Below, piece by piece: positions 29,075-61,158 of a stretch of 64,000 nt of DNA. Source of the DNA: a virus. Made by a program: the position numbers and the translations under genes. Location of the stretch: positions 62,001-126,000 of IMG/VR virus record IMGVR_UViG_3300008267_000003. One strand, written 5' to 3'. Under the pieces are notes generated by a model. It made no database searches. It saw only the letters and a list, made by a program, of their open reading frames with translations, and was not told the DNA's origin. The stretch's first letter is position 1, and the number at the start of each line of letters is the position of its first letter.

Positions 29075-29076
29075 AT

Positions 29077-29247: not shown

Positions 29248-29251
29248 ATTT

Positions 29252-29326: not shown

Positions 29327-29335
29327 AAGGATATT

Positions 29336-29824
29336 ATGAAAAAATTACTTTTTATTTTAATGTTGTTACCATCCATTGCAAGTGCTTGTGACAGTTACGT
29401 TATTGGATTCAAAGGCATTAACAATGTATTTGATGATAACGCTTTTAGACAGTATGCAATGAAGTATAAAGCATGTTCATTAGCTTACAGTTGGAATCAA
29501 GTGCATACAGCTGTTAAATTTATTAACAGTACTAAGAAGAAGTATCAGCTGTATGGATTCAGTAAGGGCGCAGAAAGTATAGGACAGGTTTTAAAACAAG
29601 TTAAACGCAAACCATACCACGTAGTAACAATTGGTGCTTACCATACTGCGAATGTTAACTATAGAGTGTACGGTGTGTCAACGCAGAACTATTTTGACGG
29701 CTCGGGAAGTAGGAACAGGTCCCCGGGCACTCATATAAGAGGAGTAGATCACGAAGACATGCAAAGACACGTTAATAGTTACTATTTTGGTATCAAACAA
29801 TGCCAGCGGAGAAAGGGCTGTTGA
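29336..29824 (+). CDS. Exported alpha/beta-hydrolase-like protein
   Basis: ATG 29336 starts a clear signal peptide (MKKLLFILMLLPSIASAC). Near residue 74 the mature part has GFSKGAES, a GxSxG nucleophile elbow, preceded by a strand (KYQLYGF). Near 110-140 lie Asp and His residues that could complete a triad, and several Cys suggest disulfides. At 162 residues it is small for the fold. It is likely a periplasmic esterase- or lipase-like enzyme of unknown substrate. Confidence 0.6.
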   Translation: MKKLLFILMLLPSIASACDSYVIGFKGINNVFDDNAFRQYAMKYKACSLAYSWNQVHTAVKFINSTKKKYQLYGFSKGAESIGQVLKQVKRKPYHVVTIGAYHTANVNYRVYGVSTQNYFDGSGSRNRSPGTHIRGVDHEDMQRHVNSYYFGIKQCQRRKGC

Positions 29825-29849
29825 CTTATTTTTGTGCTTGAGAGATAAT
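29821..29849 (+). promoter_or_regulatory. Sigma70-type promoter
   Basis: TTGACT at 29821-29826, a 17-base spacer and GATAAT at 29844-29849. It may drive the next gene, tRNA-Glu, the second large RNA and tRNA-Asn as one transcript, since no terminator lies between them. Confidence 0.8.
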
Positions 29850-29880
29850 ACATTTGTAACCATTGATAAAGGATAACATT

Positions 29881-30303
29881 ATGAAATTAGCTGCCGGTAA
29901 GTATGTGATTGCAGACCCCTGCTACATCCTCAATGAGGAAGTGTACTTCAGACTGCTGAAAGAAACCAACTACTTCATGTACGAAGCTGTTGAACGTGGT
30001 GGTGTAATGTCAGACAGTGAGACGGGAAAGTTCTTTGCTGTATTCAGTACCAAGTATGGTGATGGCACATACAGGGATGGTAAGGGATTCAAGTATGGTG
30101 TAGATGCAGGTTGCATTGCATGTATCCCTGCTGAGATGTGTGATCTGAAAGAAGACCGTGAGTACATCAACGAAGTAACTTTTGCTAGAGACTTCGAGGT
30201 ACGGTACGAGGATGGTTTGATTATATTTGGAGATGTAATTATTAATACTGATCCAGATGATTTTTATGATGATGAGGAAGAAAGCTACGAAGATGTAGCG
30301 TAA
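29881..30303 (+). CDS. Conserved phage protein of unknown function, 140 aa
   Basis: ATG 29881 follows AAAGGA. The opening AAGKYVIADPCYILNEE and the GVDAGCIACIPAEMC segment belong to a family found in many phages and some bacteria, with no assigned function. The C-terminus is a run of Asp and Glu. The start is set by the ribosome site and lies 32 bases after an early promoter. Confidence 0.65.
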   Translation: MKLAAGKYVIADPCYILNEEVYFRLLKETNYFMYEAVERGGVMSDSETGKFFAVFSTKYGDGTYRDGKGFKYGVDAGCIACIPAEMCDLKEDREYINEVTFARDFEVRYEDGLIIFGDVIINTDPDDFYDDEEESYEDVA

Positions 30304-30312
30304 GGTTTTAGT

Positions 30313-30387
30313 GCACCGTTCGTCTATCGGTTAGGACATTGCCCTTTCACGGCAGTAAGAGGAGTTCGATTCTCCTACGGTGTACCA
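30313..30387 (+). tRNA. tRNA-Glu (TTC)
   Basis: Acceptor GCACCGT / ACGGTGT, anticodon loop CTTTCAC, encoded CCA that also opens the 18-bp stem of the second large RNA. Confidence 0.95.
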
Positions 30388-30879
30388 TTTGATATGCTGG
30401 TTGTAAGCCATGGGCCGCAAGCCTGAGTAACTATCACAATATCTGGTTATCTCGAGTAACTCCAGTGAGTCGATAGCAAATAGTGCAGCCAGCATTTCAA
30501 ATGGTAACATAAAGGTTTGGCAGGAGCAGAGTCCAGTGGGAAGGACGACTAGGGGCCTGTAAAAACAAAGTAGTGAAACAATGGTATATCAACCATCAAA
30601 GTAGCGAACAGCCCTTATAGTAAACGGAGTAGCGGGAGAGAGTGATGTCTCAATGTGTCTACACCGGCCAAAAGAATCCCGTAGTCCCGTCTACGTTATT
30701 AACGGGGGTGTATTGGCACTAACCAGAACGCCAGGGTGCATACGATCACGGACCTCAAAACTCACTGACATGAGTGATAGAAACATCGTAGGTGGGTATC
30801 ACACCTTGTTTAACCAAAAGTAAATGTGATGGACAGAGTAACTGCTCAGGAGGGGGCTTATGGGAATGAGTAGCCTTCC
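30385..30879 (+). ncRNA. Large structured noncoding RNA 2 (same family as RNA 1)
   Basis: About 495 bases between tRNA-Glu and tRNA-Asn without a supportable gene. An 18-bp stem with one T-T mismatch (30385-30402 with 30487-30504) opens it. Then come ATGGT / ACCAT near 30582-30597, CCCGT / ACGGG and GTAG / CTAC nested near 30679-30705, ACTCA / TGAGT near 30761-30777, ATCACA / TGTGAT (30798-30803 with 30825-30830) and a terminal stem (30849-30860 with 30871-30879). The block GATGGACAGAGTAAC matches RNA 1 at 14 of 15 positions. The 3' end lies 8 bases before tRNA-Asn. Confidence 0.78.
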
Positions 30880-30887
30880 AAGATTAT

Positions 30888-30964
30888 TGACCAGTAGCAC
30901 AGTTGGTAGTTGCATCTGACTGTTAATCAGAATGTCGGTGGTTCGAGCCCACCCTGGTCAGCCA
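30888..30964 (+). tRNA. tRNA-Asn (GTT)
   Basis: Acceptor TGACCAG / CTGGTCA, anticodon loop CTGTTAA, discriminator G and encoded CCA. RNase P cleavage here would define the 3' end of the large RNA. Confidence 0.95.
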
Positions 30965-30980
30965 AATTAGAAAGGGTAGT

Positions 30981-31220
30981 ATGTGGGAAGTAATATTTAC
31001 GTTCTTAGCGTTATTCTTTACAGATATATTTTACACATACTATCTAAGATCAATACAGAATGAGCAGCCACTTGCATCTAGTATATGGGCTGTGATTGTA
31101 TTTGCTGTTGCCAGTGTAGCAGTAATCAACTATACTACTAATCACTGGCTTCTCATTCCTGCATGCCTAGGTGCTTTCTGTGGCACTTACGTAGGTATGA
31201 TTCTGAGGAGAAAGAAATAA
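30981..31220 (+). CDS. Small membrane protein, 79 aa
   Basis: Three hydrophobic segments (VIFTFLALFFTDIFYTYYL; IWAVIVFAVASVAVINY; LLIPACLGAFCGTYVGMIL) and a basic tail RRKK indicate a small inner-membrane protein. AAAGGG precedes the ATG. The stop codon directly abuts tRNA-Asp. Confidence 0.6.
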   Translation: MWEVIFTFLALFFTDIFYTYYLRSIQNEQPLASSIWAVIVFAVASVAVINYTTNHWLLIPACLGAFCGTYVGMILRRKK

Positions 31221-31295
31221 GGTTCCAAAGTGTTCATGGACGCACACGACACTGTCACTGTCGAAGAAGGGGATCGTTACCCCTTGGGACCGCCA
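31221..31295 (+). tRNA. tRNA-Asp (GTC)
   Basis: Acceptor GGTTCCA / TGGGACC, anticodon stem CGACA / TGTCG with loop CTGTCAC, T-stem AGGGG / CCCCT, discriminator G and encoded CCA. The T-loop ATCGTTA is unusual, which would make automated detection weaker. Confidence 0.85.
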
Positions 31296-31331
31296 TCATA
31301 TATACATTATTGTTAACTTCCAAAGGTAATA

Positions 31332-32120
31332 ATGAAAGCACTAATACTTTCCTTTGCGTTGCTGTTCAGTACCAACGTCCTGTCAGCAACCCAGTACGTA
31401 TATAACTATTCAAAAAATGAAATTGTGATAGATGAAGGTTCAGATAAGGTAAGACCCATTGCAAGTGTTACAAAGTTGATGACTGCTATTGTAATCCTTG
31501 AAAGTGAAGTTAGCCTAGATGAAAAAGTTCCTTATAAAGGATTCAAGAACATTCCATCCAAGCAAAGAACAAGAGACGAGTTGTTAGCTCTCCTGCTGAT
31601 TAAGAGTGACAACAACGCTGCAGAAGCTCTTGCAAGAAGTTTTCCAGGTGGTAGAGATCATTTTATTGATATGATGAATGTAACATCCAAGTTCCTGGGC
31701 ATGGAGTATACTACGTATGATGATCCTTCTGGTCTTAGTCCTAGAAATCAAAGTACTGCAAAAGATCTTACAAAGCTGTTGCATTATGCTTCGACCTACC
31801 CTAAAATCAAACAGATTGCTTCTATGACTAGCTTCATGTTGGTAGAACCTTCTGTAAAGAAGGCAACAGCAAAGAAGAAGAAAAAGAAAGCAAGAACATT
31901 CAGTAGTTATAGAGTGATTACAGTAAACAATACTAACTTTCATCTACTGAATGAATACGAAGAGATTGAGATCTCCAAGACTGGATACACCAATCCAGCT
32001 GGTAAGTGCTTAACAATGTTTGTTACTAAGAATGGTGAGCATTTTGCAGTTGTTATTCTTGGTGAGCGTAATATGAGAGATGTAGAAAAAGTATCAAGAA
32101 AGATTTTAGATAATCTGTAG
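31332..32120 (+). CDS. D-alanyl-D-alanine carboxypeptidase-like protein (PBP, peptidase S11)
   Basis: 262 residues with a signal peptide (KALILSFALLFSTNVLSA). The three penicillin-binding motifs are intact: S45-V-T-K48, S92-D-N94 and K216-T-G218. It lacks the C-terminal membrane-anchoring extension of DacA, so it is probably free in the periplasm. A basic run of six lysines at 181-186 is unusual. It likely trims peptidoglycan stem peptides of the host. Its stop codon gives the first base of tRNA-Thr. Confidence 0.87.
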   Translation: MKALILSFALLFSTNVLSATQYVYNYSKNEIVIDEGSDKVRPIASVTKLMTAIVILESEVSLDEKVPYKGFKNIPSKQRTRDELLALLLIKSDNNAAEALARSFPGGRDHFIDMMNVTSKFLGMEYTTYDDPSGLSPRNQSTAKDLTKLLHYASTYPKIKQIASMTSFMLVEPSVKKATAKKKKKKARTFSSYRVITVNNTNFHLLNEYEEIEISKTGYTNPAGKCLTMFVTKNGEHFAVVILGERNMRDVEKVSRKILDNL

Positions 32121-32193
32121 CCCTTTTAGTTAAATGGTATAACACTTGATTTGTAATCATGGATTGGCAGTTCGATTCTGTCAAGGGGCACCA
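32120..32193 (+). tRNA. tRNA-Thr (TGT)
   Basis: Acceptor GCCCTTT / AAGGGGC, anticodon loop TTTGTAA, T-arm GGCAG-TTCGATT-CTGTC, encoded CCA. It begins on the last base of the preceding stop codon. Confidence 0.92.
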
Positions 32194-32194
32194 T

Positions 32195-32271
32195 CTGAGT
32201 GTAGTTCAGCCTGGTAGAATGCCTGCTTTGGGAGCAGGAGGTCGGGAGTTCGATCCTCTCCACTCAGACCA
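32195..32271 (+). tRNA. tRNA-Pro (TGG)
   Basis: Acceptor CTGAGTG / CACTCAG, anticodon stem CCTGC / GCAGG with loop TTTGGGA, encoded CCA. Confidence 0.93.
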
Positions 32272-32286
32272 ATTATAGGAATGGTT

Positions 32287-32649
32287 ATGACTAAATTATT
32301 TGGTAAAGTTGATAAGGGTTGGGGCCATGAACTTATATGGGCATCGACCGATCAGTATTGCTGCAAGTTTTTAAACTTTGATAGACCAGCAGCAAAGACA
32401 TCAATGCATTATCATGAACATAAAGATGAACAGTGGTATGTTCAGAGTGGTAGGTTTCAGGTCGACTGGATTAATCTAGAAGATGGTTCGACAAAGTTTT
32501 GTAATCTTGAGGTAGGAGATACATGGCATAATTATGCTGGTACACCTCATAGGTTAGTTTGTATTGAACCTGGAACAGTAGTCGAAGTGAGCACTGCTGA
32601 TAGTGTTGAGGACAACTACAGGATTATTCCTGGCGATAGCCAGAAATAA
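32287..32649 (+). CDS. Cupin-fold protein, mannose-6-phosphate isomerase type II-like
   Basis: ATG 32287 is better spaced from AGGA than ATG 32281. The 120-residue protein has the cupin metal motifs: SMHYHEHKDEQWYVQSG (motif 1) and GDTWHNYAGTPHRLV (motif 2). It opens like the C-terminal domain of mannose-1-P guanylyltransferase/isomerases (GWGHELIWA). A role in sugar metabolism is plausible beside the glycosyltransferase at 38364. Confidence 0.75.
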   Translation: MTKLFGKVDKGWGHELIWASTDQYCCKFLNFDRPAAKTSMHYHEHKDEQWYVQSGRFQVDWINLEDGSTKFCNLEVGDTWHNYAGTPHRLVCIEPGTVVEVSTADSVEDNYRIIPGDSQK

Positions 32650-32658
32650 TAAACAAAT

Positions 32659-32740
32659 GCGCATGTGGTGAAATGGTAGACACGCTAGTCTTAGGAACTA
32701 GTCTTTCGGGGTGGGGGTTCGAGTCCCTCCATGCGCACCA
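32659..32740 (+). tRNA. tRNA-Leu (TAG)
   Basis: Acceptor GCGCATG / CATGCGC, anticodon stem CTAGT / ACTAG with loop CTTAGGA, variable arm, encoded CCA. Confidence 0.94.
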
Positions 32741-32790
32741 CACACTCGCGTTTGTTGACCGCGTATAATAGGATAAGTTGTCAACATCTA

Positions 32791-32864
32791 GCCTCGTTAG
32801 TTTAATGGTAGAACTCCATCCTTACACGGTGGTTACGGTGGTTCGATTCCATCACGAGGCACCA
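32791..32864 (+). tRNA. tRNA-Val (TAC)
   Basis: Acceptor GCCTCGT with ACGAGGC, anticodon loop CTTACAC, T-loop TTCGATT, encoded CCA. Confidence 0.94.
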
Positions 32865-32871
32865 AATTAAA

Positions 32872-32957
32872 GCCCGGGTGGTGGAATGGTAGACACAGCA
32901 GACTTAAAATCTGCCGCTTGAAAGGGCGTACCGGTTCGAGTCCGGTTCTGGGTACCA
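32872..32957 (+). tRNA. tRNA-Leu (TAA)
   Basis: Acceptor GCCCGGG with TCTGGGT (three G-U pairs), anticodon loop CTTAAAA, long variable arm, encoded CCA. Confidence 0.93.
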
Positions 32958-32969
32958 ATAGGAGATGAT

Positions 32970-33170
32970 ATGAGTATAGTGCTTCGAAGAGATCAGATAG
33001 AAAAACTAATTGACATTTATAATCACTTTCATGAGATACAATCGTTTACTATCTCTCTGGATGATAATTCTGATATGATATCAATCAACTTCGATATTAA
33101 CGATGTTAAAGCAGATTACAAACCAAGTGAAAAGTTTGATAAACCCTTCAAGCCTATGGTGTTTAAATGA
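32970..33170 (+). CDS. Hypothetical protein, 66 aa
   Basis: GGAG precedes ATG 32970. The N-terminal half is helical (RDQIEKLIDIYNHF), then two short strands and a Lys/Pro-rich tail. Not recognised. It overlaps the next gene by 4 bases. Confidence 0.5.
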   Translation: MSIVLRRDQIEKLIDIYNHFHEIQSFTISLDDNSDMISINFDINDVKADYKPSEKFDKPFKPMVFK

Positions 33171-33367
33171 AAATAGAACTCAGTGATGATACAGTCAATC
33201 GTCTCATATGGGATGTTCTATATGAAGACCTCAAAATTTTTAGAGTAGACTTGAATCGACTGGATAGTATGTCTATACTCAATGAAGCAGATCGTAGAGA
33301 TTACAAAGACTACCTAAGATATATCAACGCTCTTGAAACTCTTTTAGAGTATTATAGCGTTAAATAA
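33167..33367 (+). CDS. Hypothetical helical protein, 66 aa
   Basis: Starts in an ATGA overlap with the previous gene. It is all-helical and acidic (NEADRRDYKDYLRYINALET). The function is unknown. Confidence 0.5.
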   Translation: MKIELSDDTVNRLIWDVLYEDLKIFRVDLNRLDSMSILNEADRRDYKDYLRYINALETLLEYYSVK

Positions 33368-33371
33368 ACAC

Positions 33372-33446
33372 CTGGCGTTCGTTCAACGGATAGGACAGGA
33401 GTCTTCTAAACTCTTAATGGGGGTTCGATTCCCTCACGCCGGACCA
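33372..33446 (+). tRNA. tRNA-Arg (TCT)
   Basis: Acceptor CTGGCGT / ACGCCGG, anticodon loop CTTCTAA, T-arm GGGGG-TTCGATT-CCCTC, encoded CCA. It reads AGA, the Arg codon favoured in this AT-rich genome. Confidence 0.93.
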
Positions 33447-33452
33447 ATCAAT

Positions 33453-33526
33453 GCGGGATTAGTTTAATGGTAAAACAGCAGATTTCCAATCTTCGGTTAT
33501 CAGTTCGATTCTGATATCCCGCTCCA
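33453..33526 (+). tRNA. tRNA-Gly (TCC)
   Basis: Acceptor GCGGGAT / ATCCCGC, anticodon loop TTTCCAA, discriminator T and encoded CCA. Last tRNA of the run. Confidence 0.93.
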
Positions 33527-47996: not shown

Positions 47997-48891
47997 CTAT
48001 CTTGCTTTAGTTGTTGCTGTAGGTCTCTCTTCTGTAGCAGCTTACTTTTCTATACTTGGACTCACTGCAATCTTTGCAGCTTCATATTGGCCTGTTATTA
48101 TTATGGGATCAATGCTCGAGGCTGCTAAGGTTGTTGCTGCTTCATGGGCATTTCGTAATTGGAATGTAGCTCCTGCGTTCATCAGATACTATCTCGTAGC
48201 GGCTGTTGCTATTCTAATGATGATCACATCAATGGGTACGTTTGGGTATCTTTCCAAAGCTCATATTGAACAAACCTCATCTGTTGGTGATATTGCGGCT
48301 CAGGTTGCAGTGTATGATGAAAGGATCAAGAATCTAAATGAAAACATCGAGGCTAACCGTAAACTTCTTAAACAGTTTGACGAGGCAGTTGACCAGGTCA
48401 TGTCACGCTCGACGGATTCTAAGGGGGCGGAACGCTCGCTCCAAATTAGAAAATCACAACAGAAAGAGCGTAGCCGCCTCATGGAAGAAATTTCTACTCT
48501 ACAAAAAGAGGTTGGGAGGCTTAGTGCTGAGAGATCCCCACTGGTTTCGCAAGTCAAAAAAGTCGAGAAAGAGGTCGGTCCAATCAAGTACATCGCAGAA
48601 CTTTTTATTGATAGGGCTGATGATTCGTTTTTGGAGAAGACGGTCCGCTGGGTTATTATAATGATTGTGACTGTATTTGATCCTCTGGCTGTGCTGTTGC
48701 TTATTGCAGCCAATATGGGTATAATACGACAAGGTAGGATTAGTAAGATGAACAACACACGGGCTGCAAATATAGAAGTGAATAGAGATCTTGCTGCTGA
48801 GAGAAGGTTCAAAAAGCTACAAGAGCTAACTGGCAAGGCAAGCCGCAGTAAAGTTACTATTGACAAAAACAAGATAAGGAAGATGACATGA
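47989..48891 (+). CDS. Membrane protein with a long periplasmic or cytoplasmic coiled coil
   Basis: 300 residues. Three membrane segments lie in the first 95 residues, a coiled coil runs at about 100-200 (VYDERIKNLNENIEANRKLL), and another membrane helix lies near 225-250 (WVIIMIVTVFDPLAVLLLIA) with a basic tail. Such proteins sit just before uvsX in marine T4-like phages. A membrane anchor for replication is possible but unproven. Confidence 0.65.
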   Translation: MINYLALVVAVGLSSVAAYFSILGLTAIFAASYWPVIIMGSMLEAAKVVAASWAFRNWNVAPAFIRYYLVAAVAILMMITSMGTFGYLSKAHIEQTSSVGDIAAQVAVYDERIKNLNENIEANRKLLKQFDEAVDQVMSRSTDSKGAERSLQIRKSQQKERSRLMEEISTLQKEVGRLSAERSPLVSQVKKVEKEVGPIKYIAELFIDRADDSFLEKTVRWVIIMIVTVFDPLAVLLLIAANMGIIRQGRISKMNNTRAANIEVNRDLAAERRFKKLQELTGKASRSKVTIDKNKIRKMT

Positions 48892-49943
48892 GTTTTTTAA
48901 AGAGTTTGATTAAGGAGATTGGTGATGAGGACACTTATTTGGCCAGTGACGGCGGTGGTAGTGCTGAGTATTCTGGTTGTATTGATACTGGCAGCTATAT
49001 TCTCAACGCTCTTCTCTCTGGCAGCATCTATGGCGGCGTACCTGATAATAAAATTACTGCATTTGCAGGAGAGTCCGCTACTGGTAAAACTTTCTTCGTA
49101 CTTGGTATCGTTAGAGCCTTCCTTGACAAGAACCCAAACGCAGCAGTCGTCTACTACGATACAGAAGCAGCCGTCACCAAAGCAATGATGGAATCTCGTG
49201 GCATTGATACAACACGTGTTATCATTGCTGAGCCAGATACAATTCAAAAATTTAAAACTCATGCTTTAAAGTTGATTGAGGCCTATGAGAAGCAGCCAGA
49301 AGATACACGTCCTAAGATGATGTTCGTGTTAGATAGTCTAGGATTGTTGTCAACATCAAAAGAGATGGAAGATTCTCTTGATGGTAAAGATGTAAGGGAC
49401 ATGACAAAGTCGCAAGTTATCAAAGCTGCTTTTAGAGTACTGACATTGAAGTTGGCAAAGGTCAAAGTACCTATGCTTGTTACTAACCACGTGTATGAGG
49501 TGATTGGATCGTATGTACCAACAAAAGAACTCGGAGGCGGAACAGGTCTCAAGTATGCTGCCAGCACTATTGCAATGCTCTCTAAAAAGAAAGAGAAGGA
49601 TGGCGATGGAGACATCATTGGTAACCAAATCAAAATCAAAACATACAAGTCGAGACTCTCAAAAGAGAACCAAGACGCAACTGTGCTACTTACTTACGAC
49701 AAGGGCCTAGATAGATACTTTGGTTTACTAGACCTTGCTGAAGAAGCTGGTGTAATTAAAAAAGTATCAACACGGTATGAGTTGCCAGATGGGCGTAAAG
49801 TATTTGGTAAAGAGATTAACAATAATCCAGAACAATACTTTACAGAAGAGATTTTGCAACAGCTAGAGAACTACGCAAAAGGAAAGTATAGTTATGGATC
49901 CCAAGTCGGAACATTACAAGATAACCTTCAAGAATCAGAGTGA
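48888..49943 (+). CDS. uvsX: RecA-like recombinase UvsX
   Basis: 351 residues (T4: 391). Walker A GESATGKTFF lies near 60-69, Walker B MMFVLDSLG near 144-152, and an L2-like loop (LGGGTGLKYAASTIAML) near 218-234. It drives strand invasion with UvsY and gp32. Confidence 0.95.
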   Translation: MSFLKSLIKEIGDEDTYLASDGGGSAEYSGCIDTGSYILNALLSGSIYGGVPDNKITAFAGESATGKTFFVLGIVRAFLDKNPNAAVVYYDTEAAVTKAMMESRGIDTTRVIIAEPDTIQKFKTHALKLIEAYEKQPEDTRPKMMFVLDSLGLLSTSKEMEDSLDGKDVRDMTKSQVIKAAFRVLTLKLAKVKVPMLVTNHVYEVIGSYVPTKELGGGTGLKYAASTIAMLSKKKEKDGDGDIIGNQIKIKTYKSRLSKENQDATVLLTYDKGLDRYFGLLDLAEEAGVIKKVSTRYELPDGRKVFGKEINNNPEQYFTEEILQQLENYAKGKYSYGSQVGTLQDNLQESE

Positions 49944-52100: not shown

Positions 52101-52604
52101 ATGTCTAAGACTTTTGTTGCTATTTTAGCAATGTATTTTATTTTTGTGATTAGCAATGACCCAGCAGAGAAACGTGCAGTAATCCAGCCCGCGCAGACGT
52201 TATCTCCTGATATGATGAATCTACTATCAACAGCTAAGAAGTATACTAACTATCAGGGAACTCTTAGTCTACCGCACGTCAGCGAGGTTTCTCAGAAAAA
52301 GCTAGAGGAGATGTACTGCAATAACCGTCCTCGCTGTCCAGTATCTGCTCTTTACTTCCAAGGTCAGATATTCTACAGTGACCGTCTAGATATGCAGGAC
52401 TTGTTATCACGTTCTATCCTCCTCCATGAGTTCGTACACCACGTACAGAATGAAAGACACGGTGATACATACGATTGTGATATGTGGAAAGCAAAAGAGT
52501 TAGAAGCATACAAAATACAAGCTCAGTTTCTTAGGAAACATGGATATAATGACCAAATCATTCGCGATGTTGTAAAGACATTGAGATGCCCTATTAAAGG
52601 ATAA
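52101..52604 (+). CDS. Exported or membrane-anchored HExxH peptidase-like protein
   Basis: 167 residues. The N-terminal hydrophobic segment (TFVAILAMYFIFVIS) is a signal or anchor. LLHEFVHHVQ near 114-123 gives the HExxH metal motif and a Glu-rich helix (KAKELEAYKIQAQF) follows. Four Cys in the mature part could form disulfides. It likely acts in the periplasm. Confidence 0.65.
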   Translation: MSKTFVAILAMYFIFVISNDPAEKRAVIQPAQTLSPDMMNLLSTAKKYTNYQGTLSLPHVSEVSQKKLEEMYCNNRPRCPVSALYFQGQIFYSDRLDMQDLLSRSILLHEFVHHVQNERHGDTYDCDMWKAKELEAYKIQAQFLRKHGYNDQIIRDVVKTLRCPIKG

Positions 52605-52606
52605 GC

Positions 52607-53176
52607 ATGACAAATAAAGTGAGTGAAACCACTGCAGCTACAGCGCAAGATGATGTTGATTTGCTATTATATAAATCTGGATCGTTTTATCTTTCCGGTG
52701 ACATCGATGAACATTCTGTTTCAGATTGCATAAAGTGGATACTGGCTGAAAATATGGCCAACCGTCATACGCATCTGAACTTGTACATAAACAGTCTTGG
52801 TGGTGACCTATACCAGGCTTTTGGTCTTATTGACCTGATAAAAGCTAGTAGAATTCCTGTACACACAATAGGCGTAGGTAGTTTGATGAGTGCTGCATTT
52901 CTTATCTTTATTTCTGGTTCAAAAGGCAATCGAATTATGACTAAAAATACTAGCGTCATGTCTCACCAGTTCTCAACCTATTATGAGGGTAAAGAACACG
53001 ACGTTAAAGCTTCAGAAAAAGAAACTAGATATATTAAGCAGCGTATGTTAGATGTTATTAAACAAAGCTGTACAATGGACGAGAGAATGATAAAGCGAAA
53101 GCTACTTCCACCATCCGATGTCTGGCTATCTGCAGATGAATGCGTGGAGTTAGGTGTAGCAGATGCAATCTTCTAG
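52607..53176 (+). CDS. clpP: ClpP-like protease
   Basis: 189 residues. The ClpP core reads INSLGGDLYQAFGLIDLI, the Ser nucleophile lies in GSLMSAAFLI near residue 94, the His in SVMSHQF near 119, and a late Asp in the PPSDVWLSADE segment may complete the triad. No partner ATPase lies nearby, so it may pair with host ClpX or ClpA, or act alone. A terminator follows. Confidence 0.85.
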   Translation: MTNKVSETTAATAQDDVDLLLYKSGSFYLSGDIDEHSVSDCIKWILAENMANRHTHLNLYINSLGGDLYQAFGLIDLIKASRIPVHTIGVGSLMSAAFLIFISGSKGNRIMTKNTSVMSHQFSTYYEGKEHDVKASEKETRYIKQRMLDVIKQSCTMDERMIKRKLLPPSDVWLSADECVELGVADAIF

Positions 53177-53184
53177 TAAAATTG

Positions 53185-53207
53185 ACCCACTTCGGTGGGT
53201 TTTTTTA
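53185..53207 (+). terminator. Intrinsic terminator after the clpP-like gene
   Basis: ACCCAC / GTGGGT (53185-53190 with 53195-53200) with a TTCG loop and seven T residues. Confidence 0.9.
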
Positions 53208-53210: not shown

Positions 53211-53218
53211 TATAAATA
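53211..53218 (+). promoter_or_regulatory. T4-type late promoter of the internal-protein cassette
   Basis: Exact TATAAATA, 25 bases before the 53243 start and just after a terminator. Confidence 0.78.
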
Positions 53219-53242: not shown

Positions 53243-54253
53243 ATGAAATCATTTTTTCAATTCATTTTAGAATCAGTTTTAGTTGAGAAAGCACCTACAC
53301 CATCAACAGGTGCTCTCGAAGCAGCTAATAAAACAAACACAGCATTCGGAGATGCTTATGAGACAGCAACTGTCCTTCTTCTTCATAATAATACAGCTGC
53401 CCAGCATAATAAAGATAAAAACTACCTAGCTTCCATTGAGCATGTGAAACAAAAACATGAAAAAGCTATGGCCAGTCTGCCTTCTAATAAAGCAGGTGAT
53501 GCGCTCACGTTTGCAAGACGATCAGTGCATGCATATCTTGGAACACTATCGCATCAGGGCATTACTCAAGATCATATACATGAGGTTCATCATACAAGCC
53601 AAGGTATCAGTTCACATTTAGGTAAAACAGTCGATAGAGCAAGTAATCCTCACGATCTGTTAATAAAGGGTTCTAAAGATGGTAAATCTTTCATGCACGG
53701 TGCATCTCTCAAAGCTAAATCAGGTACTGCATCAAACAATTCAGTAGCTGCTTTTGAAAGAGCAAGTAATGCAGGTGATTCAAAACTTGGAGTAAAGACT
53801 AATATTTCTAAGCATTGGGAAGAAGGTAAGAAGAATGCTGGGTTGGTTGGTAAGACTGCTAAAGCGATAAAAGAACTACGCCATGATCCAGAAGTCAAAG
53901 AAGCTAATAGAAAAACTCAAAATGCATCAGCTGGTACACATGCAGAGGATTTTAACAACGCTAGTCACGAGGCTAAGCAGAAACACATGCTACACTTCTT
54001 AAAAGCAAATCCAATCCTTCCATACCATTATGTTGTTGGTAATAAGGGTACATCAACACCTATCAAAACACATCCAGCTGTTCAAGCTATCCACAATTCC
54101 AAATCATTAACTGCCACTACAAAGAACAATGTAGTTCATTTCCACAATGAAAAAGGTGAACACATTGCTTCTGCTGAGCATAGAACAACTCATGGACCTT
54201 TTGTGAGTCCACAAGTTAATTTTAAATTTGGAACAATGAAAGCTGCAAAATAA
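53243..54253 (+). CDS. Putative packaged nuclease-like protein with capsid-targeting N-terminus
   Basis: 336 residues. The start MKSFFQFILESVLVEKA resembles the T4 internal-protein targeting peptide, which gp21 removes. In the mature part, DLLIKG near 137 and GASLKAKSG near 153-161 could be the D and xxK halves of a PD-(D/E)XK nuclease site; this is only a motif reading. Late expression is supported by the promoter at 53211. Confidence 0.6.
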   Translation: MKSFFQFILESVLVEKAPTPSTGALEAANKTNTAFGDAYETATVLLLHNNTAAQHNKDKNYLASIEHVKQKHEKAMASLPSNKAGDALTFARRSVHAYLGTLSHQGITQDHIHEVHHTSQGISSHLGKTVDRASNPHDLLIKGSKDGKSFMHGASLKAKSGTASNNSVAAFERASNAGDSKLGVKTNISKHWEEGKKNAGLVGKTAKAIKELRHDPEVKEANRKTQNASAGTHAEDFNNASHEAKQKHMLHFLKANPILPYHYVVGNKGTSTPIKTHPAVQAIHNSKSLTATTKNNVVHFHNEKGEHIASAEHRTTHGPFVSPQVNFKFGTMKAAK

Positions 54254-55419
54254 TGCGTCATATATTCTATCTACTGAAAGAATCAGCAGCCAACGAAGAG
54301 AAGTTAAAGCATCTTGAGCATGCAGAAGACCATCCTATCAACGCTGGTGTTGATGGATACAAACATGCTGTCAACACTCTTACCGCTGTACATAAAACAC
54401 TCACAGGTCAAAAGGGTGGTGCTGATCTAATGACCAAATATGATGGCAGTCCGAGTATTGTATTTGGACATCATCCACAGACTGGTAAGTTCTTTGTTGC
54501 ATCCAAATCTGCGTTCAACAAAGATCCAAAGATTAACTATACTGACGAAGACATTGAAACTAATCATGGTCATGCTCCTGGTCTAGTATCTAAACTAAAG
54601 ACCGCACTAGCCCATCTTCCAAAAGTTAGCCCTCAGAAAGGCGTCTTTCAAGGAGATGTGATGCATACATCTGAGGATGTGGAAGAGAAGGGTGGTAAGG
54701 TTCACTTTAAACCAAATCTAATTAAGTACTCTACACCAGCCGACTCAGCAGAAGGTAAGAAGATTAAGAACTCCAAGATTGGTGTTTATGTCCATACAGG
54801 ATATGAGGGTGGTGATGTTGAGTCCATGAAAGCAAACTATACTCCAAATCTTTCTGGTTTTGCTAACCACGACAGTGTCCATATGATGAAATGGGGATAT
54901 GACACAAAGAATTCAGACTATAATGAAGATGCTCAGAAGCAATTTAAAAGACATTTAGAAGATGCAACGGATGTTGGTAAGAAACTAAAACCTAAAGATT
55001 ATGCAGCTATTGAACCTCACACCGAACATATAAAAACTTACATCAACAAGACAGTAAGAGATGATTCAACCCCTACTGCAGAAGGTTTGTATGATCATGT
55101 CAGAGACCAGCATGAAAAGGGTATTGAAAAGGTCAAAACTCAAAAAGCAAAAGATCAAAAGACTCAAGCAATGAATACGCAGCTAGGTCATATAAGAGCT
55201 AACACTGAGGCTATCAGCAATGTGTTTGCAATGCATCATCACCTACAGAAAGCAAAGGATGTATTAGTCAATGCTATGTCTCATGGCCAAGACTTCGAAC
55301 ATCATATTGGTGATACAAAAACAAAACCAGAAGGATTTGTTGCTGTTGTAAATAATAGACCAACTAAGCTGGTTGATAGAAACGAGTTTAGTAAACAGAA
55401 TTTCTTAGCGAGACAATAA
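54253..55419 (+). CDS. KxDG-type covalent nucleotidyltransferase (RNA-ligase-like)
   Basis: 388 residues. MTKYDGSPSIVFG near 60-72 holds K62-x-D-G, the lysine-adenylation motif of ligases. A GVFQGDVMH strand (motif III-like), EGFVAVV near 360-366 (motif IV) and TKLV with K372 (motif V) complete the set. The short leader MRHIFYLLKESA suggests packaging in the head. The start overlaps the previous stop (TAATG). A polynucleotide ligase or repair role is inferred. Confidence 0.65.
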   Translation: MRHIFYLLKESAANEEKLKHLEHAEDHPINAGVDGYKHAVNTLTAVHKTLTGQKGGADLMTKYDGSPSIVFGHHPQTGKFFVASKSAFNKDPKINYTDEDIETNHGHAPGLVSKLKTALAHLPKVSPQKGVFQGDVMHTSEDVEEKGGKVHFKPNLIKYSTPADSAEGKKIKNSKIGVYVHTGYEGGDVESMKANYTPNLSGFANHDSVHMMKWGYDTKNSDYNEDAQKQFKRHLEDATDVGKKLKPKDYAAIEPHTEHIKTYINKTVRDDSTPTAEGLYDHVRDQHEKGIEKVKTQKAKDQKTQAMNTQLGHIRANTEAISNVFAMHHHLQKAKDVLVNAMSHGQDFEHHIGDTKTKPEGFVAVVNNRPTKLVDRNEFSKQNFLARQ

Positions 55420-56024
55420 TGAAAAGATTCTCTCAATTCATAGCTGAGGCAGTGCAGAAGAAAGCATTGCATGTTTTTGATATTGATGATACTCTTATGC
55501 ATACAACGGCAAAGATCCACGTTAAGGACCCTCAAGGTAAGGTAGTAAAGACTCTTACAAATCAAGAGTTTAACGATCATAAGCTACCTGCAGGACACAG
55601 CTACGACTTTGGTGAATTCAGAAACGCTGAGAAGTTTAATAAAGAGTCTAAGCCAATGCCGCACATGATCAACCATGTGAAGAAGCTGACATCTGATCCA
55701 AGCAATCATGTTATATTTAATACAGCACGTGCTAACTTTGATGATAAGAATACTTTCTTGCATACCTTCAAGAAGCATGGTATTAATATGAACAAGATTC
55801 ATGTTATCAGAGCAGGTAACCTCAATAAAGAGGGTGCCCCTGCTGAGAAGAAAGCTGTAGTCATTCACGGCTACATAAAGAAGCACAAGTACAATGATGT
55901 CCATATGTACGACGATAGCAAGACTAATCTAAAGTCTTTTGTTGGATTAAAACAGGCTCATCCAAACACAACATTCCATGCTCATCACGTTGAGGGTGAG
56001 AATGTAACAACGAAGGTAGTATAA
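55419..56024 (+). CDS. HAD-family phosphatase with capsid-targeting N-terminus
   Basis: 201 residues. MKRFSQFIAEAVQKKA is very close to the T4 internal protein III leader, with the gp21-type site IAEA. HVFDIDDTLMHT at 18-29 supplies the two catalytic Asp (D21, D23); FNTARANF is motif II and MYDDSKTN motif IV. It resembles the phosphatase half of polynucleotide kinase-phosphatases. Its last base is shared with the next start. Confidence 0.75.
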   Translation: MKRFSQFIAEAVQKKALHVFDIDDTLMHTTAKIHVKDPQGKVVKTLTNQEFNDHKLPAGHSYDFGEFRNAEKFNKESKPMPHMINHVKKLTSDPSNHVIFNTARANFDDKNTFLHTFKKHGINMNKIHVIRAGNLNKEGAPAEKKAVVIHGYIKKHKYNDVHMYDDSKTNLKSFVGLKQAHPNTTFHAHHVEGENVTTKVV

Positions 56025-56632
56025 TGAAAAGATTTACCAATTTCCTCCTAGAAGGAAAAGATAAGACTGCGGTTCTACTATTTGGTAGAATGAATCCCAT
56101 TACTAGTGGTCATGAGGAGAACGTAGAAGCTGCCCATGATCTGGCAAACTCTCATGATGGCCACCTTCATGTTGTTGCTAGTGGTTCACATGATGAGAAA
56201 AAGAATCCTCTTTCACCAGAACAAAAGCAAAAACATTTGCAGCGTGCATTCGGACACTTAGACAGTACAACAATTACTACAGCATCTAAATCAAAACCAA
56301 CAATCATGCATCATGCATCTGATATTGCTAAGACAGGTGTTAAGCATCTAGTGATTGCTGGTGGTAGTGACAGGGCAGAGGAGTATAAAACGTTGCTCAA
56401 TAAGTATAATGGAGTCAAAGGAAAAGCTCATGGTGAGTATCACTTTGATTCAATTACAGTAAAGAATACCGGTGAACGTAAGGCTGGTGTTAGTGGTACT
56501 GATATGAGAAATCATGCTTCAGGTGGTAACTACGGTAAGTTCAAAGCTGGACTTCCAAGTAAAATCAAGAAGAATGAGAAGTACTCAAGAGATATGTACA
56601 ATGATGTAAGATCGGGAATGAATATTAAATGA
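56024..56632 (+). CDS. Cytidylyltransferase-like protein with capsid-targeting N-terminus
   Basis: 202 residues. The leader MKRFTNFLLEGKDK is followed at once by AVLLFGRMNPITSGH (16-30), the nucleotide-binding motif of NMN/pantetheine-phosphate adenylyltransferases, and a late GVSGTDMR matches the ISSTxxR motif. The substrate is unknown. It ends in a 4-base overlap with the fibre gene. Confidence 0.75.
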   Translation: MKRFTNFLLEGKDKTAVLLFGRMNPITSGHEENVEAAHDLANSHDGHLHVVASGSHDEKKNPLSPEQKQKHLQRAFGHLDSTTITTASKSKPTIMHHASDIAKTGVKHLVIAGGSDRAEEYKTLLNKYNGVKGKAHGEYHFDSITVKNTGERKAGVSGTDMRNHASGGNYGKFKAGLPSKIKKNEKYSRDMYNDVRSGMNIK

Positions 56633-59600
56633 CTACAAAGATCACTGCTGATAACATTGAGCAAACTACACTTGCCACACTTTCAGGTGGTCCAGCAATT
56701 GCTAATATTCAGATTGCAAATTCATCATACGGTCTATTAGATGATACTGCTGTGAATACAGCTGGTGGCTATGTGGTAATTAATGGAACTAAGTTTTCGA
56801 ATGGATGTTCTGTCCTTATAGGTAACACTGTAGCTACAACTGTTACGTTTGTATCAGCTACTCAGGTTAGAGCTCAGGTACCTGCAAAGGTTGGAGCTTC
56901 ATATGTGGTGTATGTGACTAATCCGGATGGTGGTACTGCTATTGCAGTAAACGGTCTTACATATAGTAACACTCCTGTTTGGGCTACAAATAGTACATTG
57001 ACCCCGGGTGCTGTTGATGAGGCTATTAGTATTAATTTATCTGCCCCTTCAGATTCCAACGTTGTTTATTCTGTTGCTGCAGGTAGCTCGCTTCCATCTG
57101 GTGTGTCATTAGCTTCAAATGGATTGTTGAGCGGCACTATCACTGGTATATCAGAAGAAACCACTTATAACTTTACCGTGGATGCGATCGACGTTGAACT
57201 ACAGGATACGTCTAGATCATTTAGCATAACTATTATAGCTGGTGATCAATACTACAAAAACACAACATTACATTTGAATGGTGAAACAGCATCTAATACA
57301 TGGATCATAGATGCTAGTACTAATAAGTTTCCAATCACCGTTGCTGGTGATACTAAGCCCGTAGGATTTAGTCCATATGAAACTATTTGGAGTAATTATT
57401 TTGATGGTGCCGGGGATGACTTAACGATCCCTACGAACTCGGCTTTCACTTACGGTACTGGAGATTTTACCATAGAAATGTGGGTGTATATAACAGCCAA
57501 TCCAGGCGATTACGCTTATTTTTATGCCCAAGGGCCTAACACAACTGCGTCTATGTGTTTATATATTCAAAGTGGGAAATTCAATGTTTGGAACGGATCC
57601 AACATTATTGTTGGATCAACATCATATTCACTGAACAGGTGGTATCACGTTGCGTTAAGTAGATCGGGAACATCTTTAAAATTGTTTTTGAATGGTGTTG
57701 AAGATGGATCTGCAACAAATAGTAGTAATATAACAACCGGGTCTACATATGGTTCAACCATCGGTCGTTGGGTAGAAATTGTAGATAATCGTTATTTCAC
57801 TGGATACATCTCAAATGCTCGTGTCGTTAAAGGCACTGCACTCTACACAGCAAACTTCACTCCACCAACCTCACCATTAACCGCAATCACAAACACCAGT
57901 TTATTAACCTGTCAAAGTAATAGATTAAGAGATGCTAGCACAAATAATTTTACAATTACAAGAAACGGTGATGTATCAGTAAGTAATTTTGGTCCTTTTG
58001 TCGAAACTGATTTAATTACTGGTAGTGCATTTTTTGATGGCACAGGGGATTATTTAAATGCAGGTACTACTCAACTTTGGACTCCTGCTAATAGTTTTAC
58101 TGTAGAAAGCTGGTTTTATATTACTTCTTTTGGTGGTAACACTAGAGGGCTTTTTGCTAAAGATGCTGGTACCTCAGGTTCCTCTAGAGGCATATCGATT
58201 TACGTAAACACAAATGGATCGGTAACTGTATTTTATTCATCATCTGGATCAGACGAATTATCTGCAACTTCTGTTTCTTCTGGTTTAGTAACAGTTAATC
58301 AATGGTATCATTTTGCTTTTGTCAAAAACGGAAGTAGTTGCACTCTTTATTTAAATGGATCTTCAGTATTATCCTTCACTTCAGCAACTATTGCGTGTCC
58401 CGTATCTCCATCAAATTTAATCGGTGCGTTTACAAATGGATCAACTGCTTTAAATATGCTAGGGTATATGAGTGATTTTAGATTGGTTTCAAACACAGCA
58501 GTCTACACTTCAAACTTTACACCACCAACCACACCATTAACTGCAATTGCAAACACAAGTTTACTCACACTACAATCTCGTATTGGCGAAAACAATAATC
58601 GTTTTGTTGATACTTCTGGATTGAATAATATTATCACTAGAAACGGTAATACAACACAAGGTACATTTAGTCCATATCAAAGAGGTGGTTGGAGTGGTTA
58701 TTTTACGGGATCATCAACAAGTTACATATCGACACCATCGACAACATTATTAAATCAAGGACAAACATACACTGTACAGTGTTGGATATATCCAACATCA
58801 TTTACAACATCAACTAGCGCTGTTCGTAGAATGTATCTGTTTGTTAAGGGTGTTATTTACGCAGGTTTATCAATACATAGTGACGGAACATTAGGTTGGT
58901 ATGGTTGGCCTACTCCTGGTGGAATGATAGCTACTTCAGCGGCAGGAACAATCACAACTAATTCTTGGCAGCATGTTGCACTCGTTGTTAATCCCGGCAA
59001 CTATATTAAGTTATTTAAAAATGGTGTAGAAGTAGGAACAGCGAGTTATACTGCTGCAGGCGCAGATGGATCAGCGATAATAATAGGGCATGGTGATACA
59101 GGTCAAGGTACCGATGGATTCATTGGATATATTAGTAATTTTAAGATAACCCAATCAGCATTAACCGGTGGTCAATTGGATTATTCCACCACACCAACAA
59201 TTTCCTCACCAACAGGATCCTCGTTATTAACATTGCAAACGAATCAATTCAATGATACAAGCAACTATAATTTATCTATAACACCAGCCGCAGCTGCATC
59301 AGTACAACCATTTAGTCCATTCAAAACGCATACGATAACAGCTAATACTCTTAGTGTTTTTTTTAATGGTACTGGAGACTTTTTAAGTGTTCCTGTAAAT
59401 ACTGCTTTTCAATTTGGAACTGGAGATTTTACAATTGAATGCTGGTGGTATCCGACAAGTTTAGCAACATTCCAACCTTTGATTTATCATACTGATGACA
59501 GCGGCGTTGCTGGAACAGGAGAGTATGTATTAGTTTATAATACAACTTTAGGAATGAGGTTTTATATAAACGGTGGAACAACAACAATAACACAAGGAAA

Positions 59601-61158
59601 TACTACAGGATGGTCTACAAATTTGTGGTACCATGTAGCAGCAGTTAGAAACGGAAATACGTTAACGATTTATAGAAACGGAATTTCTATTGCAAGCGGT
59701 AGTGTTTCGGGAATTACTATTGGTGCAAGTGTACTAACTTACATAGCCGGAGAACCATTTGATCCAGGATATATGACAGGGTATATTTCGAATGTTCGTA
59801 TCGTTAAAGGAACCGCAGTCTACACTTCAAACTTTACACCACCAACCTCACCATTAACCGCAATTGCAAACACCAGTTTATTAACCTGTCAGTCGAGCAG
59901 TATAATTGACAATAGCACAAATAATTTTGCAATTACAAGAAATGGTAATGCTAGAGTTACTACTGTGAATCCATTAGGATTTACCGTAACTAATTTATCA
60001 GGATCATCGGCGGATTATTCCATCATTGACGAAGGTGGTAGTATGTACTTTGATGGCACTGGTGATTATTTGGCAACTGCGGATAAAGTTGATTTAAGAC
60101 CAGGAACTTCCAACTTTACTTTAGAAGGTTGGATTTATCGTGATGTTGCTGGTGCAGCACACACCATATATGCAAAAGGTGGAGCGTCAACAGGTATTTT
60201 ATTACAAGTCACATCTACAAATGTATTGAGGTTTACTCATACAACAACTAATATAGATTCTACTATAACTATACCAGCAAAATCTTGGACTCATGTAGCA
60301 GTGGTACGTAGTGGCACTTCAACAAATCAAACTAAACTCTATATTAATGGTGTATTTGCAGCACAAGGAACAGTAAGTACTGATTTCACACAAACAGAAG
60401 AAGCTAGAGTTGGAACAAACAGAGCTGCTGGTGAAAACTTTAATGGTTATATTTCCGCATTGAGATTCTTAAAAGGTGTTGATCATTACACTTCTGGATT
60501 TGTACCACCAGCTGCACCACTAACACCCATTGTAGGAAGTACTTTATTGTTGAATGGTACTAATGGTGGTGTTTTTGATTACACTAGAAAAAATAATTTA
60601 GAAACAGTTGGTGATATTAAGATCAGAAACAATATTGTTAAGTATGGTAACACATCAATGTATTTTGATGGTACTGGAGATTATTTAAAAGCATCAACAT
60701 CCGACATGGGTAATTTTGGCACAGGAAATTTTACAATTGAGATGTGGGTGTACTTTAACACTGTTTCAGGAACACAAAATTTAATTGATTTTAGAACAGC
60801 AACAAATGATGTTGCTTTAACAATCGCCTTAGCGAGTAGTGCTATAATATTATATGTAACCGGGTCTACAAGAATAACAACATCAACTTTGTCTGCTACA
60901 ACTTGGTATCATATCGCGTGTGTTCGCAGTTCTGGTGTTACAAAAATTTATATCAATGGAACTCAATCTGGATCTAATTATACCGATACCAATTCTTATG
61001 TAGGAAAGGCAAATAGGCCTTTGATCGGCGAATTGGCTGATGGAACTACACCATTACAACCATTAAATGCTTATGTTGACGATCTTCGTATCACCAAAGG
61101 TGTTGCAAGATACACCGCAAACTTCACAGCACCTACATCAGCTTTACTGACCAGATGA
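56629..61158 (+). CDS. Giant LamG-repeat tail fibre or adhesin, 1509 aa
   Basis: An IPT/TIG-like domain occupies about residues 20-110 and a second Ig-like domain 120-205. Six LamG (concanavalin-like) domains start near 256, 467, 690, 909, 1139 and 1342, each marked by a motif like YFDGTGDYL and a GYISNxRxVKGTAVYT end. They are linked by FTPPTSPLTAIANTSLLT. LamG domains bind sugars, so this is probably a host-recognition fibre. Linkers are near identical at DNA level between some repeats. Confidence 0.85.
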   Translation: MTTKITADNIEQTTLATLSGGPAIANIQIANSSYGLLDDTAVNTAGGYVVINGTKFSNGCSVLIGNTVATTVTFVSATQVRAQVPAKVGASYVVYVTNPDGGTAIAVNGLTYSNTPVWATNSTLTPGAVDEAISINLSAPSDSNVVYSVAAGSSLPSGVSLASNGLLSGTITGISEETTYNFTVDAIDVELQDTSRSFSITIIAGDQYYKNTTLHLNGETASNTWIIDASTNKFPITVAGDTKPVGFSPYETIWSNYFDGAGDDLTIPTNSAFTYGTGDFTIEMWVYITANPGDYAYFYAQGPNTTASMCLYIQSGKFNVWNGSNIIVGSTSYSLNRWYHVALSRSGTSLKLFLNGVEDGSATNSSNITTGSTYGSTIGRWVEIVDNRYFTGYISNARVVKGTALYTANFTPPTSPLTAITNTSLLTCQSNRLRDASTNNFTITRNGDVSVSNFGPFVETDLITGSAFFDGTGDYLNAGTTQLWTPANSFTVESWFYITSFGGNTRGLFAKDAGTSGSSRGISIYVNTNGSVTVFYSSSGSDELSATSVSSGLVTVNQWYHFAFVKNGSSCTLYLNGSSVLSFTSATIACPVSPSNLIGAFTNGSTALNMLGYMSDFRLVSNTAVYTSNFTPPTTPLTAIANTSLLTLQSRIGENNNRFVDTSGLNNIITRNGNTTQGTFSPYQRGGWSGYFTGSSTSYISTPSTTLLNQGQTYTVQCWIYPTSFTTSTSAVRRMYLFVKGVIYAGLSIHSDGTLGWYGWPTPGGMIATSAAGTITTNSWQHVALVVNPGNYIKLFKNGVEVGTASYTAAGADGSAIIIGHGDTGQGTDGFIGYISNFKITQSALTGGQLDYSTTPTISSPTGSSLLTLQTNQFNDTSNYNLSITPAAAASVQPFSPFKTHTITANTLSVFFNGTGDFLSVPVNTAFQFGTGDFTIECWWYPTSLATFQPLIYHTDDSGVAGTGEYVLVYNTTLGMRFYINGGTTTITQGNTTGWSTNLWYHVAAVRNGNTLTIYRNGISIASGSVSGITIGASVLTYIAGEPFDPGYMTGYISNVRIVKGTAVYTSNFTPPTSPLTAIANTSLLTCQSSSIIDNSTNNFAITRNGNARVTTVNPLGFTVTNLSGSSADYSIIDEGGSMYFDGTGDYLATADKVDLRPGTSNFTLEGWIYRDVAGAAHTIYAKGGASTGILLQVTSTNVLRFTHTTTNIDSTITIPAKSWTHVAVVRSGTSTNQTKLYINGVFAAQGTVSTDFTQTEEARVGTNRAAGENFNGYISALRFLKGVDHYTSGFVPPAAPLTPIVGSTLLLNGTNGGVFDYTRKNNLETVGDIKIRNNIVKYGNTSMYFDGTGDYLKASTSDMGNFGTGNFTIEMWVYFNTVSGTQNLIDFRTATNDVALTIALASSAIILYVTGSTRITTSTLSATTWYHIACVRSSGVTKIYINGTQSGSNYTDTNSYVGKANRPLIGELADGTTPLQPLNAYVDDLRITKGVARYTANFTAPTSALLTR
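57817..57915 (+). repeat. LamG linker repeat, copy A
   Basis: About 100 bases encoding the end of LamG 1 and the linker. They closely match 59788-59890, especially from TTCGT..CGTTAAAGG to the end of ACCAGTTTATTAACCTGTCA. Confidence 0.75.
59788..59890 (+). repeat. LamG linker repeat, copy B
   Basis: This copy lies at the end of LamG 4 and shares long identical runs with the copy after LamG 1. A weaker copy lies at 58480-58570. Confidence 0.75.

Follow-up and report, generated by a model that had tools for sequence, protein, structure and literature searches.

A four-gene cassette behind T4-type leaders in a freshwater phage, probably encoding head-packaged enzymes

The window analysed here, a stretch of 64 kb from the virus record IMGVR_UViG_3300008267_000003 (162,011 bases), contains at positions 53243-56632 four overlapping open reading frames (ORFs) which probably form a cassette of head-packaged, T4-type cargo enzymes, with nucleic-acid end repair as their most likely task. 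Each product begins with about ten residues which, with hydrophobic residues at positions 4, 7 and 8 and Glu at position 10, have the form of a T4 capsid-targeting leader and resemble the leaders of the T4 internal proteins IPII and IPIII. Such a leader tag is already known from T4. The source virus is from freshwater and infects bacteria, and by the head, tail and replication gene set in the record it is a T4-like phage; T4-type genes include those for a portal, a tail sheath, a DNA polymerase, a UvsX-like and a gene-41-like protein, and profile matches identified homologues of the gp21 protease, the gp22 scaffold and the gp23 capsid protein. An initial annotation, made from the sequence alone, had described four coupled genes with leaders at this place, and the coordinates, overlaps and leader sequences were all confirmed. 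The features are as follows (amino acids, aa; nucleotides, nt).

53243-54253, plus strand: ORF1, 336 aa, leader and basic PD-(D/E)xK-like nuclease with predicted HinP1I/MspI-like fold (alignment, model)
53243-53272, plus strand: ORF1 leader MKSFFQFILE, positions 1, 4, 7 and 10 invariant in eight homologues
54253-55419, plus strand: ORF2, 388 aa, leader and DUF6267 (PF19782) with predicted covalent nucleotidyltransferase (ligase) fold (Pfam, model)
54253-54282, plus strand: ORF2 leader MRHIFYLLKE (family logo)
55419-56024, plus strand: ORF3, 201 aa, leader and predicted HAD phosphatase, polynucleotide-kinase-phosphatase-like without kinase domain (profiles, alignment)
55419-55448, plus strand: ORF3 leader MKRFSQFIAE, compare MKTYQEFIAE of T4 IPII/IPIII
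56024-56632, plus strand: ORF4, 202 aa, leader and predicted HIGH-superfamily nucleotidyltransferase, cytidylyltransferase/NMNAT-like (profiles, alignment)
56024-56053, plus strand: ORF4 leader MKRFTNFLLE (sequence, N-termini of relatives)
11589-12236, plus strand: gp21-type prohead (head maturation) protease (phrog_207, E 3e-75), which would cut the leaders
12283-13236, plus strand: gp22-type scaffold (phrog_237, E 7e-84), the core, which would bind the leaders
13275-14603, plus strand: gp23-type major head protein (phrog_138, E 9e-171)
53184-53201, plus strand: terminator-like hairpin with T tail (pattern scan), separating the cassette from the clpP-like gene 5' of it
53211-53218, plus strand: TATAAATA octamer, which we take to be a T4-type late-promoter element, beginning 32 nt 5' of the start of ORF1

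Leaders and head machinery

The motif L/I-x-E closes all four leaders (ILE, LKE, IAE and LLE in ORF1 to ORF4), and residue 11 is Ser, Ser, Ala and Gly, respectively. According to PMC9026906, mutants of T4 assign targeting to leader residues 4 and 7 and processing to residues 8 and 10, and cleavage by gp21 follows L/I-x-E. The ten-residue T4-type leader of the initial annotation stood, whereas the small-acidic motif after which gp21 was said to cut has to be replaced by this rule. In the AlphaFold models the confidence of ORF1 residues 1-30 and ORF2 residues 9-18 is below 50, as is expected of a loose propeptide.

For a chance estimate the exact pattern M..[FYWIL]..[FYLIMW][ILVMF].E, fixed to positions 4, 7, 8 and 10, was applied to the source record, whose non-overlapping ORFs with a length of 50 aa or more number 227. 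Eight ORFs matched, whereas shuffling of residues 2-40 in each ORF yielded 0.32 matches on average and never more than 3 (2000 runs), and the four adjacent cassette genes make up half of them. Among the other four, the match of the UvsX-like recombinase (48888-49943) is taken as chance and one runs to the end of the record. As a control, the 60-80 kb section of the T4 genome (NC_000866) was scanned, excluding plus-strand coding sequences (CDS), repEA, repEB and the incomplete tk; among 36 CDS checked the pattern found ipII and ipIII only and missed ipI. Two small leader genes were seen elsewhere in the source record: an 82-aa gene at G000 1666-1914 on the minus strand (MKRFADYINEV), which matches no PHROG and is preceded by TATAAATA at a distance of 40 nt, and an 88-aa gene at G000 126147-126413, beyond the window end (MLSFLEYIAEA, phrog_7595), similar genes of which in L009 and L013 have leaders too.

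Conservation among relatives follows the same positions. For the DUF6267 family 592 relatives were confirmed, and the unique N-termini of the best 80, thus of the closer ones, were used; for the logo (n=66) they were chosen without recourse to the motif, each starting at the ATG closest to the DUF6267 domain but no fewer than 8 residues in front of it. Positions 4, 7, 8 and 10 carry 3.0, 3.2, 3.1 and 3.5 bits, positions 2, 3, 5, 6 and 9 carry 1.2-1.7 bits, and position 11, mainly Glu, 2.3 bits; the four positions of high information are those of T4 targeting and processing genetics. A loose pattern, allowing a register shift of up to one and wider residue sets, was present in 69 of 73 unique DUF6267 N-termini from these 80 loci, and counted over unique N-termini in 19/22 for ORF2, 25/41 for ORF3 and 10/16 for ORF4. 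In the eight ORF1 homologues the linker (residues 11-31) is hypervariable, with a pair identity of 0.13 compared to 0.56 in the passenger.

Passengers appear to be exchanged behind the leader. The ORF3 proteins of the relatives L006 and L008 are 97% and 96% identical to that of the cassette, and about 70 bp covering the promoter and the leader start of the first gene are kept (96% and 93%). The first passenger of both is nevertheless unrelated to ORF1, and homology returns at ORF2. Other relatives hold additional leader-bearing passengers, and leaders or near-leaders open genes 15-18 of Melnitz-3, a phage cultured on Methylophilales. Taken from these alignments, the leaders are modular and unrelated passengers are exchangeable behind one and the same leader.

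Occurrence of the leader was further compared with that of the protease in 17 hand-picked records encoding passenger relatives. Eight of them, with HAD, ORF1 or DUF6267 relatives, hold gp21 and gp23, and the loose pattern recognises a leader on the examined passenger in seven; in the remaining record, L115, the leader is shorter and falls outside the pattern. In the nine others, which hold leader-less HAD relatives only, neither gp21 nor gp23 was found, several of these records being fragments below 60 kb; of the 16 ORF3 groups without a leader, these records cover nine. The difference between 7/8 and 0/9 is significant (p 0.0004).

The genes themselves are tightly coupled. TAATG stands at each of the three inner junctions, stop and start sharing one base, and the end of ORF4 overlaps the next gene, which starts at 56629. 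The hairpin sequence recurs identically 5' of the cassette in L006, and the TATAAATA octamer is also found 36-38 nt 5' of the scaffold and tail-sheath genes.

Passenger folds

The initial annotation had guessed a nuclease, a KxDG ligase, a HAD phosphatase and a nucleotidyltransferase, and the passengers turned out as guessed, with a nuclease fold in ORF1, a KxDG ligase fold in ORF2, a HAD protein in ORF3 and a cytidylyltransferase-like protein in ORF4. All four mature passengers are basic (isoelectric points 8.3-9.7). Sequence-only searches against solved structures gave nothing useful for ORF1, ORF2 and ORF3; the folds are claimed from conserved residues and from VIA-align 2, which re-examined the candidates proposed by Foldseek itself.

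The AlphaFold model of ORF1 (predicted local distance difference test (pLDDT) 85.2) aligned to HinP1I with Z 9.4 and 9.1 and to MspI with Z 8.0, the next row being at 4.3, and a nuclease fold of the HinP1I/MspI type is predicted accordingly from the model. Sequence identity to both enzymes is 10-11%. D138 and S155-L-K157 are invariant in the eight homologues, so that a Ser stands at the presumed catalytic strand, where PD-(D/E)xK nucleases usually have an acidic or amide residue. In the genome of S-SZBM1 (L092-L095), CCGG occurs 0 times against about 155 expected, which is a strong sign of restriction avoidance.

ORF2 belongs to PF19782 (DUF6267; E 1e-98), a family matched in 469 of 50,697 phage records and not found by name in the open-licence PMC literature. 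Its AF2 model (pLDDT 87.8, predicted template modelling score 0.86) aligned best to the Naegleria RNA ligase (Z 9.9 over 189 residues, 3.5 A), and the 50 rows listed are all RNA, tRNA or DNA ligases, with T4 Rnl2 at Z 8.2 and DNA ligases at about 7-7.3. The model thus points to the adenylation-domain fold of the RNA/DNA ligase superfamily. K62, D64, G65, G134-D135, E360-G361 and K372 are invariant in 16 aligned sequences, and the later acidic and Lys motifs were assigned by us, in ligase order, after KxDG. One profile, phrog_455, joins DUF6267 with a cytidyltransferase domain, which points to a shared pathway. Inteins tend to sit at active sites; in L041, L043 and L046 a split intein interrupts the DUF6267 gene exactly after KWDG, and in L043 (DUF6267 gene from 3386 and 4555) an ORF that by eye resembles a free-standing HNH endonuclease lies between the halves. 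The KWDG motif of L045 is uninterrupted.

In ORF3 the HAD motifs D21, D23, T102-A-R, K145 and D165-D166 are invariant in 16 sequences. The match to phrog_415 (E 4e-9, residues 12-174) covers the HAD motifs only, and this profile also matches 10 of 14 control genomes.

ORF4 matched phrog_3041 (E 7e-44) with aligned motifs of what we take to be the xxGH and SxTxxR types, S-x-T varying to S-x-S, and Pfam CTP_transf_like slightly below the cut-off. By its profile matches and motifs it is a predicted HIGH-superfamily nucleotidyltransferase. The stronger matches are cytidyltransferase families, phosphopantetheine adenylyltransferase being weak.

Homologues in virion proteomes

ORF4 homologues with the same leader are known from cyanophages as cytidylyltransferase or NMNAT, and those of S-SM1 (T4-GC190; PMC3037559), S-CREM2 (gp154; PMC10665884), S-SZBM1 (S-SZBM1_140; PMC9146016) and S-SCSM1 (S-SCSM1_91; PMC9602691 and sequence-record notes) are listed as virion proteins. 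Together with S-CREM1, whose homologue has the leader MKRYTNFLSE, leader-bearing ORF4 homologues are thus listed in four of five cyanophage virion proteomes. The homologue of S-PM2 is without leader at its annotated start and is cited as undetected in the virion (PMC3037559). The virion of S-CBWM1, outside this tally, is said to contain NMNAT (PMC9602691). Unlike in the cassette, the DUF6267 genes of the phages with these ORF4 homologues are leader-less, and the leader-less DUF6267 homologues of S-CREM2, S-SZBM1 and S-SCSM1 appear in none of the three virion lists. The leader is not mentioned where the cyanophage proteome papers deal with these proteins.

Across whole proteomes, the CDS with exact leaders in S-CREM2 were detected in five of six cases compared to 47/213 others (p 0.003), and the enrichment holds without the 24 structural proteins (p 0.0002). 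For the pooled analysis of three proteomes the leader CDS were obtained from scan lists read by eye against annotated starts, and for S-SCSM1 we counted 48 CDS marked as virion proteins in the record, 45 being given in the paper. The figure relied on is that for the exact pattern, with 6/11 against 124/708 detected (p 0.007); a mixed criterion gave p 0.002. Virion-detected leader proteins of S-CREM2 (L088, L090) include the SAM hydrolase gp6, the APH-like kinase gp14, gp13 and gp136, and the Cas9-annotated gp12, also virion-detected, has a leader-like stretch just within its annotated start. S-SZBM1_191 and S-SCSM1_30 are similar small leader proteins of 105 and 106 aa.

Proposed function and alternative explanations

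The leader, its partners gp21 and gp22 and the passenger folds are strongly supported by sequence, co-occurrence and the proteomics of homologues. For the source phage we infer the following course. The four cassette products would be cargo enzymes like the T4 internal proteins, synthesized late and alongside the head proteins. The ten-residue leader would draw each enzyme into the gp22 core, gp21 would free it by a cut after L/I-x-E, and it would be packed and ejected together with the DNA. In the host, the HAD phosphatase would take off 3' phosphates, and the DUF6267 ligase would then seal the ends, probably of RNA, e.g., of host-cleaved tRNA. ORF4 may supply or transfer nucleotides, and the ORF1 nuclease, in its swappable first slot, may serve as a variable weapon against the DNA of the host or of competitors, or may trim ends. 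It is very likely that the four proteins are packaged in the head, and their injection into the host is quite likely too. That the cassette serves nucleic-acid end repair, of RNA or DNA, in the first minutes of infection has about an even chance, and end repair of RNA specifically is less likely than not. The initial interpretation of packaged and co-injected enzymes gains support from the leader positions, the co-occurrence with gp21, passenger exchange, the virion listings of homologues in four of five phages and the four folds; its term "nucleic-acid processing kit" would fit the predicted folds.

Several results weigh against packaged end-repair enzymes. The virion evidence stems from homologues in other phages, not from the source phage. 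As far as PMC9964418 describes the 14 virion proteins of S-CREM1, they are structural or of unknown function and none fits the ORF4 homologue. The leader proteins S-SZBM1_191, S-SZBM1_192, S-SCSM1_30 and S-CREM2 gp175 are absent from the virion lists, and the detection of S-CREM2 gp13 is based on a single peptide. In the S-SZBM1 proteome alone the enrichment is not significant (p 0.45), the loose pattern in the three pooled proteomes gives only p 0.04 (7/19 against 123/700), and proteome authors themselves warn that abundant proteins may be carried over. In the gp21-negative loci L063, L066 and L079 other ORFs match the loose pattern. Regarding the folds, Foldseek alone yielded no match at E<=0.001 for the ORF1 or ORF2 model, and VIA cautions that Z values below 8 may reflect a common arrangement. 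The ligase families PF09414 (RNA_ligase) and PF01068 (DNA_ligase_A_M) have no match in the source record, and for ORF3, with its 201 aa, no kinase family was among the Pfam hits and no P-loop kinase domain was found. Counts of GCGC and CCGG in the record reach 1.06 and 1.25 times the expected values, so that neither site is depleted and there is no sign of a nuclease target. The octamer occurs six times in the window, not above chance (5.4 expected), so that only its placement, and not its frequency, speaks for a late promoter.

Four other explanations were considered. A packaged kit might act on DNA instead of RNA, repairing or preparing the incoming phage DNA by nick sealing and end cleaning, or degrading host DNA. 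The set does include a nuclease with a restriction-enzyme fold, DNA ligases align to ORF2 as well (Z about 7), and no PF01068-type DNA ligase occurs elsewhere in the record (other ligase families were not searched). RNA ligases align better to ORF2, however (Z 9.9-8.2 against about 7.3), which is small evidence. The window contains 24 tRNA genes, all within 24977-33526, and these together with the RNA ligases leading the fold list render RNA somewhat likelier than DNA; a DNA-directed kit is regarded as rather unlikely.

Packaged enzymes could also serve NAD+ or nucleotide chemistry, with ORF4 as an NMNAT rebuilding NAD+ against NAD-depleting defences and DUF6267 adenylylating a target other than an end. 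The ORF4 homologues of S-SCSM1 and S-CREM1 are named NMNAT and NadR-like, respectively, ORF4 matches the nicotinamide-nucleotide adenylyltransferase profile phrog_3462 (E 9e-4), and effects on NAD are proposed by the authors on S-SCSM1 (PMC9602691). Against this stand the better matches of ORF4 to cytidyltransferase families and its neighbours, i.e., the ligase fold, the nuclease fold and the HAD protein, as well as the joining of DUF6267 and cytidyltransferase in phrog_455, and we consider such a role unlikely.

It is quite improbable that the leader is another amphipathic N-terminal feature, for dimerisation or for attachment to membrane or replisome, of proteins used inside the cell. The cassette adjoins the replication genes uvsX and gene 41, the N-terminus of the UvsX-like protein fits the pattern too, and several leader proteins are missing from virion lists, but the conserved positions coincide with those assigned to targeting and cleavage in T4 mutants, the HAD relatives in nine gp21-negative records have no leaders, and virion listings separate the leader-bearing ORF4 homologues from the leader-less DUF6267 proteins. 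Chance likeness or common descent of the four genes, conceivable as short motifs match easily, is scarcely credible and was rejected in view of the shuffle test, the logo and the four different passenger folds, with leaders free to diverge at positions 2, 3, 5, 6 and 9.

Head-packaged end-repair enzymes, the preferred reading, can be compared with several known systems. T4 IPI, IPII, IPIII and Alt likewise have the L/I-x-E cut site and a common leader followed by basic passengers that are unrelated to each other. Alt is an ADP-ribosyltransferase, whereas the cassette holds four predicted nucleic-acid enzymes in one operon. T4 repairs tRNA with Pnkp and RNA ligase, and the cassette follows the same logic of a 3'-phosphatase plus a ligase, as do the repair sets of HAD and ATP-grasp RNA ligase in jumbo phages (PMC7824862). 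Differences are that packaging is not mentioned where PMC7824862 treats such sets, that ORF3 is without a kinase and that DUF6267 lies outside PF09414. In the giant phages phiKZ and SPN3US, a different group from the source phage, a protease related to gp21 cleaves ejected head proteins behind Glu, according to PMC9026906, which also describes the internal proteins of T4 as basic. In the open-licence PMC literature "capsid targeting" together with "cyanophage" was found only in a T4 review, and an operon of tagged enzymes, the assignment of DUF6267 to a ligase fold and the spread of the tag in water-borne T4-like phages look new.

T4 internal proteins are chiefly known as small inhibitors of restriction enzymes, Ip1-3 acting on those of type IV, for Ip2 and Ip3 according to recent work (PMC12373910). 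If the proposal is true, phages deliver catalysis at time zero and not inhibitors alone. Taken more broadly, the leader may be a general address tag in freshwater and marine T4-like phages and the locus a swappable cargo rack of RNA/DNA end-repair enzymes, including DUF6267 as a new ligase family, which would undo host-defence damage before phage gene expression; the tag would then also account for the Cas9-annotated protein, the SAM hydrolase, the kinase and the NMNAT in cyanophage virions. This wider view is tentative, falling a little short of an even chance. The leader rule would predict virion content in any T4-like genome, fitting five of six cases in S-CREM2 and only 6/11 over the three proteomes, and it offers a reason for virion enzymes left unexplained in the pertinent parts of the cyanophage papers. 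DUF6267, a family of unknown function, gains a candidate ligase activity from the model.

The cassette is directly preceded by genes for a DUF6647 protein and for a protease of the ClpP type (52101-53176), and the gene overlapping its end (56629-61158) codes for a protein of 1509 aa with lectin-like repeats and six laminin-G/concanavalin-like matches.

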